In this document: one piece after another, positions 5,091 to 56,320 of the stretch
Layout: the number at the start of each line of letters is the position of its first letter
Position numbering within the stretch: position 1 is the stretch's first letter
Assembly: GCA_002897675.1 (NCBI GenBank)
Contig: BDSU01000031.1
Location: 1-56,320 of the forward strand
Direction of reading: 5' to 3'
DNA length: 56,320 bases
DNA from: a bacterium BMS3Abin02
GTDB taxonomy: Bacteria; Actinomycetota; Acidimicrobiia; Spongiisociales; UBA4744
The notes under the pieces: generated by a model
Database searches by the model: none
What the model saw: the letters and a program-made list of their open reading frames with translations, nothing else
Told to the model about the DNA's origin: nothing
Made by a program: the position numbers and the translations under genes

Positions 5091-7826
5091 TCACGAACCT
5101 GCCGCGAGTTGGATCCCGGGCGATCGAGGGTCGGGTTCGCTGTGTTCAGCCTGGCCTCGGGCGGCCGGCTCAAGGACATCGGTGCTCGATGAGGGCGGTC
5201 GCGCGAGGTGGTCGATGACGGCGGTCTGGGCTCGGCTGTGTTCGAGTGACATTGCCAGAGTGTCGAGATCTCCCTTCCAATCCGGATGGGTGAGGTGGGT
5301 GCACTGTTCGTTCGCTGGTTGGGGGTTGGTGAGGTAGAGGGTGTTGGTTTGCCGGCCGCGGCTCATGGCGACGTAGACCCATTCCCGGTCGGTAGCACCC
5401 TCGATCACGGTGAACGTGCGGTCGGTGGTGACGCCTTGCGCTTTGTGACCGGTCATTGCGTAGCCGTAGTCGACGTGCCCTTGATCGAGGTACCAGACAG
5501 GCAGGTCTCTTCTCTCGGGGTCACGGTCGAGCTGCACGTCAAGCGTGCCGTGGTCTGGGTCGACGGAGACGACGATGCCGAGGTCACCGTTGAGTATCCC
5601 GAGCCGACTCTGGTTTTGGCGGCACAGGATCCGGTCACCAGCCTGGAAGACCCGTTCTCCTGTTTCAAGGGCGGGTCCGTGGAGTCGGTTGGATGCGGCC
5701 AGGTGGGTGCGGGCCCTTTGGTTGAGTTCGGTGACGGTGTCGTTGTCGTAGGCGATGAGCAACCCTGAGGTGAGGTCACCGGTAGCTGCAACGTAGCGAT
5801 ACCAGTCGTCCACTGCTCGTGTGATCGTGTTGTCTCGGTCCTGTCCGATGATCAGACGTCGATGCTGTTGGTAGGCGTTGATCGCTTGGTCGACGGACCC
5901 GTTTCGGAGTTGGGTGAGGGCGACACGCTCCCACATCTCGTGTTGACGAACATTCTCGGTCAGCTCGGCCGCCGGGAGCCGGTTGACCAGGGCCCGAAAG
6001 AGGCCTCCGGCTTCGATCTCGGGTAGCTGACGGTCGTCACCGATCAGGATCAGCTTCCCTTGCGCCTGTTCTACGAGGTCGGTGACGGCGGCGAGTTGGC
6101 GGGTGCCTACCATGGCTGCCTCGTCGACCACCACGATCGCACCGTCGGGGAGACCACCGTCTCGGTTTTCTCCTATCAGTCGGGTGAGGGTGACAGACGG
6201 GATCCCAGTGGCTGCTTGGAGGCCGGCGGCGGTCCTGCCGGCCAGCGCCGCCCCGAGAATCGGGGTGCCGGTCATGGCGGCGAGCTGGCTGATCACGGCC
6301 ATGACTGCGGTTTTGCCGGTTCCTGCCGGCCCGATGCCGACGTCGATAGTGTCGCTCGAGGTGGCGAACCGTCGCACCATCTCGGCCTGTCCTTCGGTGA
6401 GGTGCCGGTGGCGTCGCAACCTGCCTTCGACCAGACGGTCGGGTGCGCCCCATCGTCCGGCACCGATCCCGGCGATGGCCTGTTCGATGGTCCGCTGCTC
6501 GGTGGCCAACAGTTCGACGGTCGTGTACTGGCGAGCCACGGTGCCGGGGAACAGGGTGCCGTCGCGACGTCGCATCGGACGGGACACCGCCTCCGTGGCT
6601 GGCTCGACGCTCGTTTCGAGCTCGACCGGATCCTGATCCTCGACGTCGCGTCCGGGTAGGAGCGGTACAACGTCGGATGTGTTGAGGAACGTCTCGGCGA
6701 GGGATTCAATCTGGCTTCGTGTGCCCCCCTCCGGCAAGGCCGCCGCTACCTGCTTGACCACTTCGGCTCGCCCGAACGTGGAGGCCCGTTCGGTGAGCCC
6801 GGCGGGCGAGGCAAGCCGTTTGAACAGCACCTCGGGATCGGCCGGCGGGACATCCCTGCCGCCACCCATCAGCCGGACGATCCGTCCGGGGGTGAGACCC
6901 ACCTCGACGGCCCGCTGTTTCCATTCGACCTCGAGGTCGGCGAGTGGATGATCCTGCTTTGGGCTGCGGGTGGCCAACACTGCTACCTGTCGCGCCGTCG
7001 CGGTGTCCGGCAGGCCTTGTTCTTGGCGCCACTCCTCGAGTTGGTGACGTCTCCGGGAGAACGCTTCGATCTGGGGGCGGGTGAACCCGGCAATGTCGGC
7101 CATCCCGTTGCGGATCGGCTGCCAGCGAACCCCCAAGCGTTCGGTCAGTTCTTTTCGTAGGACGGCTTCGTGGAGGTACCCGGCAGCCAGCTGATACCGA
7201 TACAGCAACCTGCCGTCCACCGTCCGCCACACCCCATCTGTCCCTTTGACCTTGTTGGCGACCACCACATGAGTATGCAGCTGAGGGTCGTCGGCACGAG
7301 ACGTGAACTCGGTGAACGACGCCGCCACATACCCTGACGTCTTGATCGACCAGGTCTCCACCCGAAACCTCCGACTGTCGTTCTCGTTGCGGATCGGGTC
7401 GCCGTTGACGTCGAGAACCGGGGTCTTGGTAGCGCCCCTGGTTGACGACGCGACCGACTCCAAATACCGAAACGCCGCCCCGGTGGCCTCCTCGAACGCC
7501 GACACCACCTGCTGACGGGTCTCGAGATCTCCCAAAGCCCACAGCAGTGACACGGACTTGTCCGCCGAGAACGTCACATCCCACGCCGCCACCCCATCCC
7601 TCCGCAAACACCGTCCCAACCGCTCACCGGTGCCGGGATGCTGACCATCAAACAGGCGGACCAGACTATCTGCGGTCACTGTCCCCGACAGGCCCATCTC
7701 GGCGGCGCCTTTCCCTCGCCAGATGCCGGTGGCGGTGCCACCGCGCAGGTAGTAGTCCTCCCCGGGGGAGATCTCCCCCAACTTGCGCAGGTAATAGTCC
7801 TTGGCGGCCTTGGCCAAACTCAACAC
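5091..7826 (-). CDS. MobF-family conjugative relaxase with helicase domain
   Basis: The product is 911 residues from a GTG start. The N-terminal TrwC-type relaxase domain has tandem tyrosines (DYYLRKL near residue 11 and DYYLRGG near 25) as nicking candidates and a three-histidine metal motif, DDPQLHTHVVV, near residue 180. A RecD/TraI-like helicase follows: Walker A GPAGTGKT near 497, Walker B VVVDEAAM near 565, GDDRQLPEIEAGG, and the late motif TGHKAQGVT with YVAMSRGR. It would nick oriT, bind the 5' end and unwind the strand for transfer. Its GTG overlaps the stop of the small gene upstream. A close relative starts at 54887. Confidence 0.9.
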   Translation of the reverse strand: MLSLAKAAKDYYLRKLGEISPGEDYYLRGGTATGIWRGKGAAEMGLSGTVTADSLVRLFDGQHPGTGERLGRCLRRDGVAAWDVTFSADKSVSLLWALGDLETRQQVVSAFEEATGAAFRYLESVASSTRGATKTPVLDVNGDPIRNENDSRRFRVETWSIKTSGYVAASFTEFTSRADDPQLHTHVVVANKVKGTDGVWRTVDGRLLYRYQLAAGYLHEAVLRKELTERLGVRWQPIRNGMADIAGFTRPQIEAFSRRRHQLEEWRQEQGLPDTATARQVAVLATRSPKQDHPLADLEVEWKQRAVEVGLTPGRIVRLMGGGRDVPPADPEVLFKRLASPAGLTERASTFGRAEVVKQVAAALPEGGTRSQIESLAETFLNTSDVVPLLPGRDVEDQDPVELETSVEPATEAVSRPMRRRDGTLFPGTVARQYTTVELLATEQRTIEQAIAGIGAGRWGAPDRLVEGRLRRHRHLTEGQAEMVRRFATSSDTIDVGIGPAGTGKTAVMAVISQLAAMTGTPILGAALAGRTAAGLQAATGIPSVTLTRLIGENRDGGLPDGAIVVVDEAAMVGTRQLAAVTDLVEQAQGKLILIGDDRQLPEIEAGGLFRALVNRLPAAELTENVRQHEMWERVALTQLRNGSVDQAINAYQQHRRLIIGQDRDNTITRAVDDWYRYVAATGDLTSGLLIAYDNDTVTELNQRARTHLAASNRLHGPALETGERVFQAGDRILCRQNQSRLGILNGDLGIVVSVDPDHGTLDVQLDRDPERRDLPVWYLDQGHVDYGYAMTGHKAQGVTTDRTFTVIEGATDREWVYVAMSRGRQTNTLYLTNPQPANEQCTHLTHPDWKGDLDTLAMSLEHSRAQTAVIDHLARPPSSSTDVLEPAARGQAEHSEPDPRSPGIQLAAGS

Positions 7827-8155
7827 CAGCCACCCCCGGGAGCAACTGGTTGCAGATGCGTGTGTCGCGAAGGACGGTGGTTTTGGAGGTGGTCAATCCT
7901 GGTTGGGGTGTGTTGGTCGACGAGGCCTCGGTGTTCATGGATCGTGGTTGTTCTGGATCGGGTGATCTCGCCTTCAGCAGCTATTGAGAATCCGCACTCG
8001 TCCAGAAGGGCTGGTTCGGTCGGTTCCCGGTCTGTGTCCGGAATCGGTGCCATCCGCGTTTCGATGCGGGAGTTCCGAAGACCCGTCCAGACGATGGCCA
8101 GACCTGCGATGAGGTCGCGGTCTTCGCTGTGGTCGACGCTGCGTGCAGGCTCCAT
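7820..8155 (-). CDS. Small conserved protein coupled to the relaxase gene
   Basis: The 111-residue frame starts MEPARSVDHSEDRDLIAGLA and ends RHTHLQPVAPGGGWC. Its stop overlaps the relaxase GTG by seven bases (GTGTTGA), so translation is coupled. Element 2 has the same gene at 54561-54893 in the same relation. The proteins stay in register across many substitutions with one residue length difference, which supports real coding. No known domain was recognised; conserved parts are the GL.IVWT.LR segment and the C-terminal HTHLQPVA.GG.WC. A longer start (TTG at 8176) is possible. A role as a relaxase accessory protein or translational leader is an inference. Confidence 0.55.
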   Translation of the reverse strand: MEPARSVDHSEDRDLIAGLAIVWTGLRNSRIETRMAPIPDTDREPTEPALLDECGFSIAAEGEITRSRTTTIHEHRGLVDQHTPTRIDHLQNHRPSRHTHLQPVAPGGGWC

Positions 8156-8176
8156 GTCGGCCAGTAGACAGCCCAA

Positions 8177-8222
8177 CCCTCTCAGCAGAGTTTCAGTAAC
8201 CCTCTCACCAGAGTGTCAGTAG
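8177..8222. repeat. Two 23-bp tandem repeats (control region, element 1)
   Basis: The units at 8177-8199 and 8200-8222 begin CCCTCTCA(G/C)CAGAGT and end TCAGTA, with a partial third unit CCCTCC at 8223-8228. Element 2 carries two equivalent units in inverted orientation at 54494-54539. They lie just upstream of the small gene and relaxase. Iterons of this kind usually bind an initiator or regulator, or form part of oriT. Confidence 0.7.
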
Positions 8223-8315
8223 CCCTCCAACCGCACCGCCGACAGCCACGGAGTAAACCGGTGTGCGCTGGTTTCGAACATTTCCAAAGAGCTCGTTGAC
8301 CAGGCGAAACAGCCG

Positions 8316-8371
8316 AAATGGCAACCAAATAACAGGCCTGTTGACACTCAAATGGCATCGAGATGAAAGGG
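8316..8371. promoter_or_regulatory. Paired 21-22 bp repeats around a palindrome (element 1)
   Basis: The units at 8316-8336 and 8350-8371 both begin AAATGGCA and end in ACAGG or AAAGGG, 34 bases apart, on the same face of the helix. Between them is the palindrome AACAGGCCTGTT (8331-8342). The arrangement recurs in element 2 at 54344-54399, where the palindrome is TGACAGGCCTGTCA. It lies between the divergent excisionase and small-gene/relaxase units, so it is probably a shared operator. A TTGACA at 8341-8346 could be a -35 box for the excisionase gene. Confidence 0.6.
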
Positions 8372-8391
8372 TCCCATCGCACACTCGGAGG

Positions 8392-8583
8392 ATGAACAAT
8401 CTTGATCCGCTGCTCTCGGCCCAAGAACTCGCCAACTACCTCGAAGTCCCCATCGCAACGATCTACGCCTGGCGCTGTCGCGGAGAGGGCCCACCAGGGT
8501 TCCGCGCCGGCAGACACCTCCGCTACCGGTGGGCCGACGTCGAGCGTTGGATCAGAGGCCGAATCAGCGAGCGTACTGGCTGA
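8392..8583 (+). CDS. Excisionase-type helix-turn-helix protein
   Basis: From the ATG at 8392 the product is 63 residues: MNNLDPLLSAQELANYLEVP, then TIYAWRCRGEGPPGFRAG and a basic tail. This is the MerR-like fold of the HTH_17/AlpA excisionase family, which bends DNA at att sites and steers the integrase to excision. GGAGG ends directly at the ATG with no spacing, so initiation may be weak or leaderless. It faces away from the relaxase unit and converges with the integrase gene. Repeats of one family flank it at 8341-8372 and 8624-8655. Confidence 0.78.
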   Translation: MNNLDPLLSAQELANYLEVPIATIYAWRCRGEGPPGFRAGRHLRYRWADVERWIRGRISERTG

Positions 8584-8623
8584 CCTTGCGAGATTCACCG
8601 GAGAAGACGTAATAGCGGCTCTG

Positions 8624-8655
8624 CTGACACACAGATGGCATCGAGATGACAGGGT
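8624..8655. repeat. Third copy of the excisionase-flanking repeat
   Basis: CTGACACACAGATGGCATCG and the bases following it match 8341-8372 almost base for base (TTGACACTCAAATGGCATCG and on), both ending GATGA(A/C)AGGGT. The copy lies 40 bases beyond the excisionase stop, before the integrase 3' end. It may be a further binding site of the same regulator. Confidence 0.55.
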
Positions 8656-8698
8656 GCCGACGAGAAGCCGCTCCGGGCAGGGGAGAAGCCTTGTTCGC

Positions 8699-9847
8699 CT
8701 ATCTGGCCTCGAGTTCGGCAGTGCCCTCCCTGTACAGATTCTCGAGCAGGCCCCTGGTTGTGTCGAAGGCGTCGGGAAAGAGGTGCCCGTAGCGATCAAG
8801 TGTGACTTTCGCAGAACTGTGGCCGGCATGGATCTGGATCTGCAGGGCGGGTGCTCCTGCAGCGATCAGGAACGCGACGGAAGTATGTCGAAGGTCGTGA
8901 GGGGTGACATTCTCTAGGCCAGCCACGTCTAGGGCGGGCTTCCAGTACCGGCGATTGAAGTTTGAACGGCGCAAGGGCCGGCCCTCCCTGGACGTGAAGA
9001 CCAAGTCCTCCGGATCATCTGAGATGCCCGACAAGTGTCTCACCAATCGATCGACGACCCCCGGAGGCACCGCAGCCGTTCGGGCCCGATCTGTCTTCGT
9101 CCCCTTGAACATGAATCCGCCACCCGGCTTCTCGACGAGCGAACGGGACACCATCAGACGTCCCCGCTGGATATCGATGTCGCGGCGACGCAACGCCACG
9201 GCTTCTCCCCACCGCAGCCCGCCGAACGCCATGACCAGCACCAGGGCGTCGTACACAGGAGTCAGCGCGTCGGCCAATCGTGCCACCTCGAAAGGAGTGA
9301 GGTATCGGTCTCGCTTGGGAGGTTCAGGAAGTGTGATCCCTTCCGCAGGGTTCTTGGCTATGTAGCTGTTCCTAATTGCCAATCGGAGGACCGCAGTGAC
9401 GACCCTGAACGCCTGGCGGCGCCGCGACAGCGACAAGGGAAGCTCAGCCAGCCACTCTGATAGTCCGAGGTTGTCAATGTCGCCGAGGGGTACCACACCC
9501 CATCGCGGCAGCACGTGGACGTCCAACAACGAGCGGTAGCCGGCGATCGTGTTCGGCGACTTGTCCCGGAGAGTACGGAACCATCTCTCTGCCAGCCTCC
9601 CGAAAGTAGTGAGCGCTCGTCGCGGGTCGGTGTAGGAGCCGCTAACCAGATCGGCGGTGACGTGCTCTAGAAACCGATCCGCCGCTGCCTTGGTCGGAAA
9701 GCCGGCCTTCGTCTGCCGCTGCCCGGCTGGATCCTTCCAGACCGCTCGCCAGGAGATGTTGTTGCGGCTGGCGCTCTTCGTGGGATCCCGCTTGTACTTG
9801 TGCGTGTGGCTCACGGTCGGATTGTACGAGCGAGCATCTGTGAGCAC
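8699..9847 (-). CDS. Tyrosine integrase of element 1
   Basis: The 382-residue protein has an N-terminal arm-binding part (VWKDPAGQRQTKAGFPTKAA), a SAM-like core-binding domain around residues 80-170, and a catalytic domain. Catalytic residues are Arg212 (FGGLRWGE), His317/Arg320 (HDLRHT), His343 (HAGH) and Tyr353 (LDRYGHL). The GTG at 9847 is used here. A GTG at 9814 (VSHTHKYKRD) is equally possible because neither has a clear ribosome site. The gene start lies 40 bases from the tRNA-Phe 3' half, the expected place for the integrase of a tRNA-targeted element. It is not close in sequence to the element 2 integrase. Confidence 0.92.
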   Translation of the reverse strand: MLTDARSYNPTVSHTHKYKRDPTKSASRNNISWRAVWKDPAGQRQTKAGFPTKAAADRFLEHVTADLVSGSYTDPRRALTTFGRLAERWFRTLRDKSPNTIAGYRSLLDVHVLPRWGVVPLGDIDNLGLSEWLAELPLSLSRRRQAFRVVTAVLRLAIRNSYIAKNPAEGITLPEPPKRDRYLTPFEVARLADALTPVYDALVLVMAFGGLRWGEAVALRRRDIDIQRGRLMVSRSLVEKPGGGFMFKGTKTDRARTAAVPPGVVDRLVRHLSGISDDPEDLVFTSREGRPLRRSNFNRRYWKPALDVAGLENVTPHDLRHTSVAFLIAAGAPALQIQIHAGHSSAKVTLDRYGHLFPDAFDTTRGLLENLYREGTAELEAR

Positions 9848-9886: not shown

Positions 9887-9936
9887 CAGGTCTGAAAAAC
9901 CTGGGGTCGGCAGTTCGATTCTGCCCCTGGCCACCA
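9887..9936 (+). other. att site: 3' half of tRNA-Phe(GAA)
   Basis: The sequence holds a tRNA-Phe anticodon arm (CAGGT, loop CTGAAAA with anticodon GAA, ACCTG), T-arm GGCAGTTCGATTCTGCC, acceptor strand CCTGGCC, discriminator A and encoded CCA. Upstream there is no GGCCAGG partner, and the D-arm is absent or eroded, so no complete tRNA can fold. A sound 3' half beside an integrase is the usual attachment-site scar. The core probably includes the anticodon loop onwards. The intact gene is predicted beyond the left edge. Confidence 0.75.
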
Positions 9937-10377
9937 AGATGAGTACCCGGTCACGGACCTGCGGGCGACAACCTCGTACCCGCACCGGTTCGGAAAGGAC
10001 TCCCGCCCACACGTTCCACTCGCCGACTCGACGTCGACTAACCACTGAGTAGGCTCGCGCCGTCAGTCCGTTCCTGGATGGACTGTCTGCGACGACGGCG
10101 ACTTTCTCCCTGGCAGGTCGCCGTTCTCGCGTCCGCTTTCCGGCTGACGCCGGCCCCCCTCCCGGCTTCGCCGTACTCCCCCCAACGCTCGCTTCGCTCG
10201 CTGAGGGGAGAAACGTTGGTCCCCTCCCCCCAGGGCCGACCATCTCCTCCCCCAGCAAGGGCTCTGCCGAGCGTCGGGGGAGGTGGCCCGCCAGGGCCGG
10301 AGTGGGTCCTGAGAGGTGTCCCCTTTGAGATCGGTGCGGGTTCGCGGATCTCCGAACCGGCATCACTCGGCAAACTC
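9937..10377. other. Non-coding stretch with GC-rich dispersed repeat
   Basis: No supported gene was found. Around 10153-10290 is a C-rich repeat containing CCCCCCTCCCGGCTTCGCCG and short self-complementary pieces such as GCTCGCTTCGCTCGC. The same CCCCCCTCCCGGCTTCGCCG occurs at about 31630-31649 in a similar stretch, again with GGGGAGA and CGTTGG nearby. This looks like a genome-wide intergenic repeat rather than a gene. Confidence 0.45.
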
Positions 10378-52577: not shown

Positions 52578-52651
52578 CGGGACGTGGCGCAGTTTGGCAG
52601 CGCGCAGCGTTCGGGACGCTGAGGTCGCCGGTTCAAATCCGGCCGTCCCGA
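52578..52651 (+). tRNA. tRNA-Pro(CGG), attachment site of element 2
   Basis: Acceptor CGGGACG pairs with CGTCCCG; the anticodon arm is CAGCG, loop TTCGGGA with anticodon CGG, CGCTG; the T-arm is GCCGGTTCAAATCCGGC; the discriminator is A and CCA is encoded (52652-52654). C1-G72 is typical of tRNA-Pro. A -10-like TATCAT is at 52562-52567. The gene is intact, and the integrase begins just beyond, so element 2 has rebuilt its 3' end. Confidence 0.93.
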
Positions 52652-52834
52652 CCAGAAAGGTGCTGGTCAGGGCTCTGTCACCAGGGTTCTGGCCAGTACC
52701 CGATTCTTTTCATCCCGCGTTTATCCCGCGATCGTTCCTTGACATTCCTCGACGACAACTCATTGCTCATGAGCGGAGACCCCAGCGGCTTTCTCGATCA
52801 GCATCGGCACACGGTCAGAGATGCCGGCGAACTG

Positions 52835-53965
52835 TCATGAACCTTCTGGCCCGGCCACCGCGCTCCCAGAATCGGTGGTCGATGGCATCAACCTCGCCCC
52901 CAGCTTCTGCGCAGCCGACCGGTCTCCCTCCGCTGTCGCCTGGGCGTAGATGGCCAGGGTCAACCGTGGATCGGAGTGCCCGAGCCGGGCCTGCGCCGTC
53001 TTGACATCCACTCCGTCGAGGACCATCGCCGTCGCATTGGTCCGCCTCAAGTCGTGGAACCCGAGGCCCGTCAGGTCGGCACTCTCCACGGCTGGCAGCC
53101 ACACCCGCCGCCTCCAATTGGAATAGTCCAGCGGTCCGCCGTCCGCATTGGCAAACAAGAAGGCGTCAGGCTCGGCACCCGTCAGTCCACGATGCGCAAG
53201 ATGGATGCTCAGAAGGTTTGCCAACGCCACTGGGATGGTCAGAGTTCGGTGCCCAGCAGCGGACTTCGGCGGACTCACGAAGCCCACGCCGCCCATGCCC
53301 CGCGTCACCTGTTCGGCCACAGTCACTGTCCTGCGCAACAGGTCGATGCGTCCAACCCGCAGCCCGGCGACCTCACCCCATCGAAGCCCTAGCACCGCCC
53401 CCAGCCACACCATCGGCGCGAATTCCTCCGGCATCGAATCCGCCAGGCGAATGAGGTCTCGAGGCTCCACGATCCTCACCGCTGCAGGCTCGACTGCCGG
53501 AAGCCGGATCCCCCTGCACGGTGACCGCAAGATCAGATCAGTTTCGACCCCGTAATTGAGGACCGCCCGTACAGTTCCGTACATGCGACGAACGGTCCGA
53601 GGCGCCATCCTGAGCGACCAGTCGGTTACCAACGCGCGGATGTCACCCGGTGTCAACGATCCGATCTTTCGCTGCCCCAGAGCCGGCAGCACATGCACCC
53701 GAAGAGCACTCTCGTCACGTGCGAGGGTGGATTGCCGCTTGGCCGGGTTGCTCTGCAACCACTCCATGGAGAGCTCGGCCAACGAGACGTTCGCCCCTCG
53801 CGGATCGACCCATGCTCCCCTCGCCTTCGCCGTACGCTGAGCCGCCTCGTACTCAACGGCCTCTCGCTTGGTTCGGAACGTTCGTGACACCTCGCGTCCG
53901 TCGGGGCCGCGCAAGCGCACCTCATAGACCTTGCCTTTTTGGGTGCTGCGTTGATGGATACTCAT
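52835..53965 (-). CDS. Tyrosine integrase of element 2
   Basis: The ATG at 53965 follows AAGGAGG closely and gives 376 residues, MSIHQRSTQKGKVYEVRLRG. Arm-type and core-binding domains lead to the catalytic part: Arg195 (GLRWGEVAGL), His304/Arg307 (HDLRRT), His330 (LGHSD) and Tyr340 (AIYAQAT). The 3' end of the gene faces the tRNA-Pro, 184 bases away. It differs throughout from the element 1 integrase, as expected for a different tRNA target. Confidence 0.93.
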   Translation of the reverse strand: MSIHQRSTQKGKVYEVRLRGPDGREVSRTFRTKREAVEYEAAQRTAKARGAWVDPRGANVSLAELSMEWLQSNPAKRQSTLARDESALRVHVLPALGQRKIGSLTPGDIRALVTDWSLRMAPRTVRRMYGTVRAVLNYGVETDLILRSPCRGIRLPAVEPAAVRIVEPRDLIRLADSMPEEFAPMVWLGAVLGLRWGEVAGLRVGRIDLLRRTVTVAEQVTRGMGGVGFVSPPKSAAGHRTLTIPVALANLLSIHLAHRGLTGAEPDAFLFANADGGPLDYSNWRRRVWLPAVESADLTGLGFHDLRRTNATAMVLDGVDVKTAQARLGHSDPRLTLAIYAQATAEGDRSAAQKLGARLMPSTTDSGSAVAGPEGS

Positions 53966-54081
53966 GGCGCCTCCTTGTGACGTCCCGTCAAGAAACATAC
54001 AACCCATCTCTGACAGCACGACTCCAGCGATGTCTATGCCGGCTACTCGGGCGAGACAAAAGGAGGTCCACGGATCGGAAC

Positions 54082-54276
54082 CTACCCAGCCCGCGAGGTT
54101 TCATGCTGCTCTTGCAGTCGGTCTACGAACTCGGCCAACGCCCGAGCAGGAACGCGCCTGCTCGTGTCGATCCGAACGGATGCCAGCCGACCGTCGCCGA
54201 TTAACTCATACACTTTCGAGCGGCCGATCGACAGCACCGTGGCCGCTTCCTCCGGCGTCAAGAGCAGCTTGTCCAC
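54082..54276 (-). CDS. Excisionase-type helix-turn-helix protein
   Basis: From a GTG at 54276 after AAAGGAGGAA, the 64-residue protein reads VDKLLLTPEEAATVLSIGRS, then KVYELIGDGRLASVRID, an HTH_17/excisionase fold with a basic end. It is transcribed with the integrase, 116 bases ahead of it. Unlike element 1, it points the same way as the integrase. Just upstream lies the abandoned start of a different excisionase gene. Confidence 0.8.
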   Translation of the reverse strand: MDKLLLTPEEAATVLSIGRSKVYELIGDGRLASVRIDTSRRVPARALAEFVDRLQEQHETSRAG

Positions 54277-54296: not shown

Positions 54297-54323
54297 TGAG
54301 AGCAGCGGATCGGGGTTGTTCAT
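54297..54323 (-). pseudogene. 5' remnant of an element-1 type excisionase gene
   Basis: Read on the minus strand from the ATG at 54323 it encodes MNNPDPLLS, matching MNNLDPLLS of the element 1 excisionase (8392). Upstream, the operator region matches too. After about nine codons the match stops and unrelated sequence leading to the other excisionase begins. This is the breakpoint of a module exchange. Confidence 0.7.
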
Positions 54324-54343
54324 GGCCCGAGTGTGCGATGGGA

Positions 54344-54399
54344 CCCTGTTATTTCGTTGCCATTTGGGTGTTGACAGGCCTGTCATTCGGATGTCATTT
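54344..54399. promoter_or_regulatory. Paired repeats around a palindrome (element 2)
   Basis: Units at 54344-54365 and 54379-54399, read on the minus strand, begin AAATG(G/A)CA and end ACAGG, 35 bases apart. The palindrome TGACAGGCCTGTCA is at 54372-54385. It is the counterpart of 8316-8371 in element 1 in inverted orientation, and probably a shared operator. Confidence 0.6.
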
Positions 54400-54493: not shown

Positions 54494-54539
54494 TTTCTGA
54501 AACTCTGGTGAGAGGGTTTCTGACACTCTGGTGACAGGG
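54494..54539. repeat. Two 23-bp tandem repeats (control region, element 2)
   Basis: Units at 54494-54516 and 54517-54539 both begin TTTCTGA(A/C)ACTCTGGTGA and end AGGG. They equal the units at 8177-8222 of element 1 read on the other strand. The second ends 21 bases before the ATG of the coupled small gene. Confidence 0.7.
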
Positions 54540-54560
54540 TTGTTCTGTCTACTGGCCGTC

Positions 54561-54893
54561 ATGGAGCCTGTCCGCAACGTCGAGCACAGCACCGGTAGGG
54601 GCCTCGTCGCAGGTCTGGTCGTCGTCTGGACGGACCTCCGGGACTCCTCCATCAGAGAGCCGGCGACGACCCCGGATACGAACCGGGAACCAACCGAACC
54701 AACACTTCACGACCGGCACGAATGCTCAGCAGCCCCCAAAGGCGCACTCACCCGACCTATCACCACCGCGATCCACGATCACCAAGACCTGATCGACCGA
54801 AACGCCTGCACCAGGATCAGCCGCCTCCAACACCATCGTCCTTGGCGACACACGCATCTGCAACCAGTTGCTACCGGAGGTGCTTGGTGTTGA
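54561..54893 (+). CDS. Small conserved protein coupled to the relaxase gene (element 2)
   Basis: The 110-residue frame reads MEPVRNVEHSTGRGLVAGLV and ends RHTHLQPVATGGAWC. It is homologous to the gene at 7820-8155, kept in register over its length with scattered substitutions. Its stop overlaps the relaxase GTG by seven bases, as in element 1. A GTG at 54531 would add ten residues. No domain was recognised. Confidence 0.55.
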   Translation: MEPVRNVEHSTGRGLVAGLVVVWTDLRDSSIREPATTPDTNREPTEPTLHDRHECSAAPKGALTRPITTAIHDHQDLIDRNACTRISRLQHHRPWRHTHLQPVATGGAWC

Positions 54894-56320
54894 GTTTGGC
54901 CAAGGCTGCCAAGGACTATTACCTGCGCAAGTTGGGGGAGATCTCCCCTGGGGAGGACTACTACCTGCGCGGTGGCACCGCCACCGGCATCTGGCGGGGC
55001 AGCGGCGCCGCCGAGCTGGGTCTGTCGGGGACGGTGTCGACGGAGGGTTTGGTGCGCCTGTTTGATGGTCAACATCCCGCAACGGGTGAGCGGCTGGGAC
55101 GCAGCCTGCGGAGGGATGGGGTGGCGGCGTGGGATGTGACGTTCTCGGCGGACAAGTCGGTGTCATTGCTGTGGGCTCTCGGCGACGAGAACACCCGGGA
55201 GCAAGTGCTGTCGGCGTTCGAGGAGGCCACCGGGGCGGCGTTGGGGTATTTGGAGGCGGTAGCCTCATCGACCAGGGGTGCCACCAAAACCCCGGTCCTT
55301 GATGAGAGTGGCGACCCGATGCTCAACGAGAATGGGACACCCAAGTTCCGAGTCCAGACGTGGCCGATCGCTACGACGGGGTATGTGGCGGCGTCGTTCA
55401 CGGAGTTCACGTCTCGCGCCGACGACCCGCAGTTGCACACCCATGTGGTGGTCGCCAACAAGGTCAAAGGCACCGACGGGGTATGGCGGACCATCGACGG
55501 CAGGTTGCTATACCGGCATCAGCTCGCCGCCGGCTACCTCCACGAAGCCGTCCTCAGACACGAGTTGACGGAGCGCCTGGGGGTGGGTTGGCAGCCGGTC
55601 CACAACGGGATGGCCGACATCGCCGGGTTCACCCGCCCTCAGATCGAAGCGTTCTCCAGGAGACGCCACCAACTCGAGGAGTGGCGGGAGACCCAGGGCC
55701 TTGCGGACACCGCAGCGGCACGACAAGTAGCGGTGCTGGCCACCCGCACCCCAAAGACAGACCATCCCCTCGAAGACCTCGAAACCGGATGGAAACAGCG
55801 GGCCGTCGAGGTCGGTCTCACCCCCGACCGGATCGGCCAGATGTTGGGTGACGGCAGCGGCGTGACACCGGCCGATCCCGAGGTGCTGTTCAAACGTCTG
55901 GCCTCACCTGTCGGGCTCACCGAACGCGCCGCCACGTTCGGGCAGGCCGAGGTGATCAAGGAGATCGCCGGGGCACTCCCCGAAGGTGGTACTCGCGACC
56001 AGATCGAACACCTCGCTGAGACGTTCCTCGACACCCGGGATGTCGTACCGCTCCTACCCAATCCCAACACCGAACAGGCCGAAGAACTGGATCCCCTCGT
56101 TGGTGTCGAAGGTGACCAGGCCGCCGAGCTGGTCGGCGACGAGGAGGGTAGGCGGCTGATGCGTCGCCGGGACGGGAGCCTTTTCCCCGGTGTGCGACAC
56201 GAACACCGCTACACCACCGCCGAGCTGCTGGTCACCGAGCAGCGGATCATCGAACAGGCCATCTCCGGGATCGGTGCCGGCCGATGGACCGCACCCGACC
56301 GTCTGGTCGAAGCCAGGTTG
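54887..56320 (+). CDS. MobF-family relaxase (element 2), cut by the window edge
   Basis: The GTG at 54887 opens a frame that runs to the window end, 478 residues without a stop. It follows the element 1 relaxase closely from the first residue: tandem tyrosines in KDYYLRKL and EDYYLRGG, DVTFSADKSVSLLWALGD, the three-histidine motif DDPQLHTHVVVANK, and GMADIAGFTRPQIEAFSRRR. Differences include a small insertion near DESGDPMLNENGTPK. The helicase part would lie beyond the edge. It would nick the transfer origin of element 2. Confidence 0.9.
   Translation, partial: MLSLAKAAKDYYLRKLGEISPGEDYYLRGGTATGIWRGSGAAELGLSGTVSTEGLVRLFDGQHPATGERLGRSLRRDGVAAWDVTFSADKSVSLLWALGDENTREQVLSAFEEATGAALGYLEAVASSTRGATKTPVLDESGDPMLNENGTPKFRVQTWPIATTGYVAASFTEFTSRADDPQLHTHVVVANKVKGTDGVWRTIDGRLLYRHQLAAGYLHEAVLRHELTERLGVGWQPVHNGMADIAGFTRPQIEAFSRRRHQLEEWRETQGLADTAAARQVAVLATRTPKTDHPLEDLETGWKQRAVEVGLTPDRIGQMLGDGSGVTPADPEVLFKRLASPVGLTERAATFGQAEVIKEIAGALPEGGTRDQIEHLAETFLDTRDVVPLLPNPNTEQAEELDPLVGVEGDQAAELVGDEEGRRLMRRRDGSLFPGVRHEHRYTTAELLVTEQRIIEQAISGIGAGRWTAPDRLVEARL

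Follow-up and report, generated by a model that had tools for sequence, protein, structure and literature searches.

We found that the repeats in the control regions of two mobile elements, A and B, are copies of a single 11-bp half-site motif. In the reading that we consider fairly probable, they form divergent operator/promoter arrays that are read by the small protein XisA, whereas oriT is a separate hairpin block directly upstream of the relaxase gene. On the sequence evidence, there is one motif with 11-bp phasing, a fixed distance from the array to a -10 hexamer, several kinds of downstream gene, and independence from the relaxase clade. In the proposed mechanism, each phased half-site array ends with TGANAGGGT and is followed, after a gap of exactly 8 nt, by a -10 hexamer; of two back-to-back arrays, one would drive xis (plus int in most relatives) and the other would transcribe towards the relaxase. 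XisA, which is encoded next to the arrays and has the RdfS/BldC/Xis fold, would by analogy polymerize head-to-tail on the phased half-sites, and the filament next to the -10 hexamer would activate RNA polymerase. Excision and DNA processing would thereby be switched on together.

Elements A and B

The window analyzed here is an entire contig of 56,320 bases from a 2.5-Mb draft genome. Element A lies at its left end and element B, reversed, at its right end (Table 1). Both have the genes of an ICE (integrase, excisionase, and relaxase) and an att site; both run off the contig, the far att of each lying beyond its ends. The N-terminal parts of the two relaxases are 80% identical; a third element of the same genome (contig C7, L100) has the same units and a relaxase that is only 31% identical. 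The homology between A and B breaks off 26 bp into the xis ORF (8392-8417; 54323-54298), which an earlier, sequence-only reading of this DNA had overlooked. Element B has a 21-codon xisA stub (MNNPDPLLSEAERRNWWTSCS) behind an intact array, then a different HTH_17 gene, xisB, preceded by its own Shine-Dalgarno-like AGGAGG. Judged by this break, the xis-int cassette of B is swapped behind a retained promoter.

Table 1. Features of elements A and B in the window; promoter hexamers and oriT/nic blocks are predictions.
Feature	Position	Strand	Remarks
MobF relaxase-helicase of A	5091-7826	-	TrwC PF08751 + AAA_30
Control region of A	7827-8391		between relaxase and xisA
oriT/nic candidate of A	7842-7869 (pattern match 7842-7864)	+	GCAAC-TG-GTTGC hairpin 7842-7853, then AGATGCGTGTGTCGCG; 96% A/B identity
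Predicted -10 hexamer TCTACT of A, relaxase side	8163-8168	-	8 nt past array; ATG at 8155-8153
Relaxase-side promoter array of A	8177-8222	-	two 23-bp units (8177-8199, 8200-8222); four half-sites 11-12 bp apart, outward to left
xis-side promoter array of A	8316-8371	+	second family of the earlier reading; half-sites near 8319, 8330, 8342, 8353, 8364, spacing 11-12 bp
Predicted -10 hexamer CACACT of A, xis side	8380-8385	+	-12 to -7 of xis ATG; leaderless start predicted
xisA	8392-8583	+	63-aa HTH_17 protein, proposed array binder
Third array copy of A	8611-8658 (best 33 bp 8623-8655)	+	between xis and inverted int; no -10 hexamer
Tyrosine integrase of A	8699-9847	-	inverted relative to the usual order (relaxase leftward; xis, then int, rightward)
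tRNA-Phe 3' fragment	9887-9937	+	probable att end of A
tRNA-Pro	52578-52654		beside integrase of B
Tyrosine integrase of B	52835-54019	-	adjoins tRNA-Pro
xisB	54082-54276	-	HTH_17 protein differing from xisA, behind retained promoter
Predicted -10 hexamer CACACT of B, xis side	54330-54335	-	ATG of xisA stub ORF at 54323
xis-side promoter array of B	54344-54399	-	
Relaxase-side promoter array of B	54494-54539	+	two 23-bp units (54494-54516, 54517-54539); reads rightward
Predicted -10 hexamer TCTACT of B, relaxase side	54548-54553	+	ATG at 54561
oriT/nic candidate of B	54849-54871	+	CACACGCATCTGCAACCAGTTGC
MobF relaxase of B	54887-56320	+	runs off contig end

A single half-site motif

The sequence-only reading had described two repeat families, tandem pairs of 23-bp units and a second repeated stretch, kept in the same relative order in both elements. 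Both are present in A and B, in the same order, and the two tandem 23-mers of A are 91% identical. As judged from the alignments, the observation is real but misdescribed: there is one phased operator motif, forming divergent promoters. Each 23-bp unit consists of two 11-bp half-sites, TGACACTCTGG and TGAGAGGGT, and the repeats of the second stretch are a diverged copy of the 23-bp units facing the opposite way. The half-site core TGACA recurs once per helical turn, and the terminal half-site is TGANAGGGT. The palindrome CAGGCCTG, around which the second family had been drawn, is the junction between two half-sites and is not conserved, L035-L037 having CAGGGTAA at that place.

The bases between the repeats had been said to vary, but the control regions of A and B are homologous along their whole length (78% identity overall), with 85% identity in the tandem pair, 80% between, and 80% in the second stretch; the best-kept stretch is the 28-nt block adjoining the relaxase (96%). 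Because the repeats barely exceed the intervening identity in A versus B, the finding rests on additional relatives. Alignment of control regions from relatives, which the earlier reading had proposed as a check, bore out the repeats and brought to light the single motif, visible only with these relatives added. A 33-bp scoring matrix trained on relatives found 8 sites scoring at least 9 in the window compared with 0-3 in ten shuffled windows. The third array copy of A had been overlooked. A conserved box, TTGACCAGGCGAAACA, also lies upstream of xis (8296-8311), at a distance of about 80-95 nt; L033-L037, L041, L196, and L197 have near matches to it.

A 29-column matrix was based on 102 sites in the window and 38 extended loci, 39 sequences in all, and the shuffled control set yielded zero sites. 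When 395 genomes of the class were searched at the DNA level, 28 had matches, and many of the short ones coincide with the 23-bp units. When 55 distinct xisA-family genes were aligned at the start codon, TGnCA stood at -50 and -39, TGANAGGGT at -28 to -20, and CAnGAT at -12 to -7; TGANAGGGT was found at 7 of 9 positions or better, exactly at -28 to -20, in 39 of the 55. Matches to the motif or the control region had supplied most of these loci, so the sample is in part biased towards the motif. The TGnCA columns at -50, -39, and -28 thus repeat directly at a spacing of about one helical turn. The same register is kept in four loci of XisA relatives (L189, L190, L191, L194) with half-sites resembling TGACA, TGTCA, or CGACA, in which AGGGT is missing; the recognition helix differs there too, at residue 26. 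The changed half-sites together with residue 26 are a possible specificity switch.

Predicted promoter architecture

Among distinct terminal units from one actinobacterial order, 77 of 103 are separated by exactly 8 nt from a -10-like hexamer that follows them. At nt 9-14 past the unit, the form xAnnnT was found in 60 of the 103 and TnTAnT in 17, compared with at most 8 and 0, respectively, at other offsets; neither form was recognizable in the remaining 26. After removal of similar sequences (n = 53) the counts were 26 and 7, with at most 4 and 0 elsewhere. The relaxase-side hexamer TCTAsT is unlike the xis-side CAnnAT. A start codon lay exactly 20 nt past the unit in 46 of 155 units, a count that includes inner units. 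In several loci with only int, the hexamer kept its position despite a later int start, so the distance that looks constant is that from the array to the -10 hexamer and not to the ATG. The downstream genes vary: xis, int directly, an ArdC/DnaG-type primase, or the relaxase leader. This fixed spacing suits an activator better than a repressor, without proving it. The earlier suggestion of protein-binding sites, perhaps a transfer switch, agrees with promoter arrays at a fixed distance on the xis/int and relaxase sides, the binding itself being putative.

In five loci (L117, L119, L042, L106, L110), an ArdC-DnaG primase fusion of about 650 aa begins 20 nt after an array unit. A leader (window 7870-8155) separates the relaxase-side promoter from the nic-like block; it measures about 290-330 nt and is similar in length among elements with differing downstream genes. 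We considered it as a gene: A, B, L032, and L036 have an open frame there, but the mismatches between A and B fall evenly over the codon positions (25, 24, 29), in contrast to the relaxase (16, 6, 38), so a protein-coding role is unsupported.

The tandem 22-23-bp units are similar in size to plasmid iterons. A role as replication iterons is nonetheless hardly credible, as the units face outward to promoters at a fixed distance and recur at several genes per element, and no Rep gene was recognized beside the arrays of the window. It is also highly unlikely that the repeats are arm sites bound by Xis or integrase for excision at attP. An HTH_17 protein resembling excisionases would fit such sites, as would the third copy of A, close to the 3' end of int, but A is the only one of the 91 int loci listed with a convincing copy at that place, the att end of A lies on the opposite side of int, and integrases that are 30% identical have the same arrays. 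The third copy as an attP arm was accordingly dropped as unsupported.

The hairpin block beside the relaxase

A 23-nt hairpin block sits 15 nt upstream of the relaxase in both elements (7842-7864 in A), and its 28-nt extension in A is probably the oriT/nick site, a candidate assignment made from its sequence and position. A block of this CACACGC type ending in the GCAAC/GTTG hairpin (block 1) was present in 23 of 23 array clusters with a clade-1 relaxase. Of 15 more distant relaxase loci, 12 (clade 2) carry a second block, GACAGACGRGTGCACACCTGCGGT or nearly so, and three carry neither. The conserved block therefore follows the relaxase clade (block 1 in 23/23 clade-1 clusters, block 2 in 12/12 clade-2 loci), whereas the repeats do not: they occur with clade 1, with clade 2 (about 31% identity; L100, L113), and without a nearby relaxase. 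The letters of the hairpin stem hardly vary in the clade-1 rows, and so provide no compensatory evidence for or against pairing.

The sequence-only reading had offered oriT as one role for the repeats, which would then be relaxase or relaxosome-accessory sites for DNA processing. oriTs are described as rich in direct and inverted repeats (PMC4853378). A search of the order's 138 genomes found the nic-like pattern in 43 (control, 0); we examined 30 loci from 30 of these genomes, and among the 26 with at least 600 nt upstream, 23 have array units (score at least 15), often about 335-361 or 160 nt away. We nevertheless consider this role quite improbable. The units are phased to a -10 hexamer, recur several times per element, accompany two clades having different blocks as well as xis/int without a nearby relaxase, and are found without any nic-like block in 23 of 73 clusters; the repeats were thus rejected as oriT and the candidate was moved to the hairpin block. 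The earlier reading had also named related elements with the same relaxase but no repeats as evidence against it. Two such loci exist: L066, with a 65%-identical relaxase, retains the nic-like block and has no unit in 900 nt upstream, and L205 has none in 761 nt; on the other hand, units scoring at least 20 were found within 900 nt at 23 of the 25 clade-1 relaxase loci. With units near most clade-1 relaxases and nic-like blocks, the arrays lie in the control region that also holds the probable oriT, but they are distinct from it.

XisA as the candidate binder

XisA is a 63-aa protein consisting of an HTH_17 winged-helix domain without the MerR effector part (PF12728, E 1.1e-11). A profile search of solved chains with XisA ranked RdfS first (8dgl, E 5e-4) and BldC third. 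The predicted model (pLDDT 85.6) matches RdfS, BldC, GIsul2 excisionase, and Pukovnik Xis; RdfS was at Foldseek rank 1 with a VIA Z of 8.7, and the Foldseek search with the model gave no match at E ≤ 0.001. By analogy with these proteins, we infer that XisA is a filament-forming activator of the arrays: it would bind them and activate rather than repress. The transcripts are predicted to be leaderless and the hairpin block to be the nick site.

The strict motif pattern ACCCTNTCANCARAGTNTCA was searched in 138 genomes of the order and was found in 24, with 0 for the reversed-pattern control. A xisA homologue (E ≤ 1e-25) was present in 20 of the 24 motif genomes compared with 12 of the 114 others (Fisher p 2.6e-12), several of these 12 having diverged arrays. 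The clade-1 relaxase (E < 1e-100) was present in 14 of 24 compared with 4 of 114, an association that is also strong, so co-occurrence alone cannot single out XisA.

The arrays might instead be read by another protein, a host or element-encoded regulator, or XisA might be a repressor; we regard this as rather unlikely. In its favor, xisA is absent or broken in four of the 24 motif-bearing genomes: G180, G274, G306, and G243 (81-92% complete) gave no xisA match. In element B and its G038 relative, the array persists although xisB stands in place of xisA, and 12 of the 73 array clusters have an integrase with no nearby xisA or xisB. However, an all-against-all comparison of 31 array loci found no regulator besides XisA common to all, and the restriction of the motif to one order in the collections searched argues against a general host regulator. 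Moreover, the xisA-less G180 and G306 are also without a relaxase match, and their relaxase-less elements could depend on a helper. At L046 (G274), the relaxase is intact and has its array, next to a xisA-like fragment with about 15 residues matched. Should XisA be the binder, as we favor, B would have to rely on XisA supplied by A or by the C7 element.

Clusters without a nearby relaxase, and distribution

The 73 array clusters, among which the near-duplicates L102 and L103 are counted separately, comprise 23 with a clade-1 relaxase, 2 with a clade-2 relaxase, 20 with a small protein bearing a SEC-C motif at its C terminus, and 28 in none of these groups. L102 and L103 (G046 contig C59), about 22 kb apart, have near-identical control regions with seven units each and represent a duplicated element or a tandem pair. 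The SEC-C assignment was obtained by Pfam in 4 of 4 proteins examined. A ribbon-helix-helix fold for this protein had been suggested only by eye and was rejected, the sole strong Pfam match being SEC-C and the model being poor there. In 19 of the 20 SEC-C clusters, block 1 is present with no relaxase start within 900 nt, on contigs that are mostly short, so that a relaxase could lie elsewhere in the element; nine of the 20 have an integrase and no nearby xis. The SEC-C clusters are candidate hitchhikers copying both the operator and the nick site.

With a stricter motif pattern, a search of 84,980 species genomes gave 31 stretches. Several are labelled with other phyla (Acidobacteria, Armatimonadetes, Planctomycetota); these we read as mislabelled or contaminated drafts, and the motif was confined to one actinobacterial order in the collections searched. 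There was no match to the motif in viral contigs and none to the control region in plasmids, and in the literature searched on this array we recognized no paper describing such an array.

The arrays may be a switch common to many mobile elements of one order, in which elements without their own relaxase respond to the signal of another element. A more far-reaching version is put forward tentatively, as a possibility that we stop short of calling likely: an order-wide control code in which the xis/int and relaxase promoters of an ICE are turned on by its own Xis-like filament activator, which would also act in trans on the same phased arrays of co-resident elements, including relaxase-less copiers of the nick site, often without xisA. 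If true, the excision and transfer of several elements per cell would be synchronized by one 63-residue protein.

Comparison with known systems

The closest solved relative of XisA is RdfS of ICEMlSymR7A, likewise a small HTH_17 protein, which is described as an oligomeric wHTH RDF required for excision and transfer (PMC11963761; PDB 8DGL). RdfS is reported to bind its own promoter and to activate intS and other RDF promoters, with no apparent consensus described (PMC11963761). In contrast, the motif here is a sharp, 11-bp phased consensus, order-wide and facing the relaxase and ArdC-primase genes too. The XisA model also has no helix matching the extra N-terminal helix of RdfS. BldC of Streptomyces (PDB 6AMA, 6AMK) is described as assembling head-to-tail on direct repeats into filaments whose subunits are one DNA turn apart (PMC5859096). 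XisA and BldC share the HTH_17 fold and are 63 and 68 residues long, but BldC regulates development, is encoded on the chromosome, and has an AT-rich half-site, AATTNNNNC, whereas the half-sites here are of the TGACA type, about 11 bp, and belong to mobile elements. Control of the RdfS/BldC type is consistent with the fold of XisA and with the repeat geometry, and XisA would bind the arrays accordingly. If right, this provides a readable operator consensus, not findable for RdfS, for an HTH_17 recombination directionality factor and accounts for a possible coupling of excision and DNA processing in a MobF element family.

AcaCD and SetCD are FlhDC-like master activators. Relaxase-less islands are described as using a helper's activator together with an oriT look-alike, as for SGI1 with IncC (AcaCD) and for SXT-type ICEs (SetCD) (PMC11389934). 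The SEC-C clusters share the arrangement of such oriT-mimic islands driven by a helper's activator; here, however, the candidate activator is HTH_17 Xis-like, the order is a mostly uncultured actinobacterial one, and the mobilization is putative. If right, the array and hairpin block together would be a sequence handle on relaxase-less hitchhikers in this order. As to the nick itself, the R388 oriT/TrwC nic sequence is GCACCGAAAGGTGCGTATTGTCT (PMC4176350). Both systems have a MobF relaxase and a hairpin followed by a TGCGT..GTC stretch, here GCAACTGGTTGCAGATGCGTGTGTCG (clade-1 block, other strand), but spacing and most bases differ, and the nick site here is predicted. If right, nick sites would be predicted for two relaxase clades.
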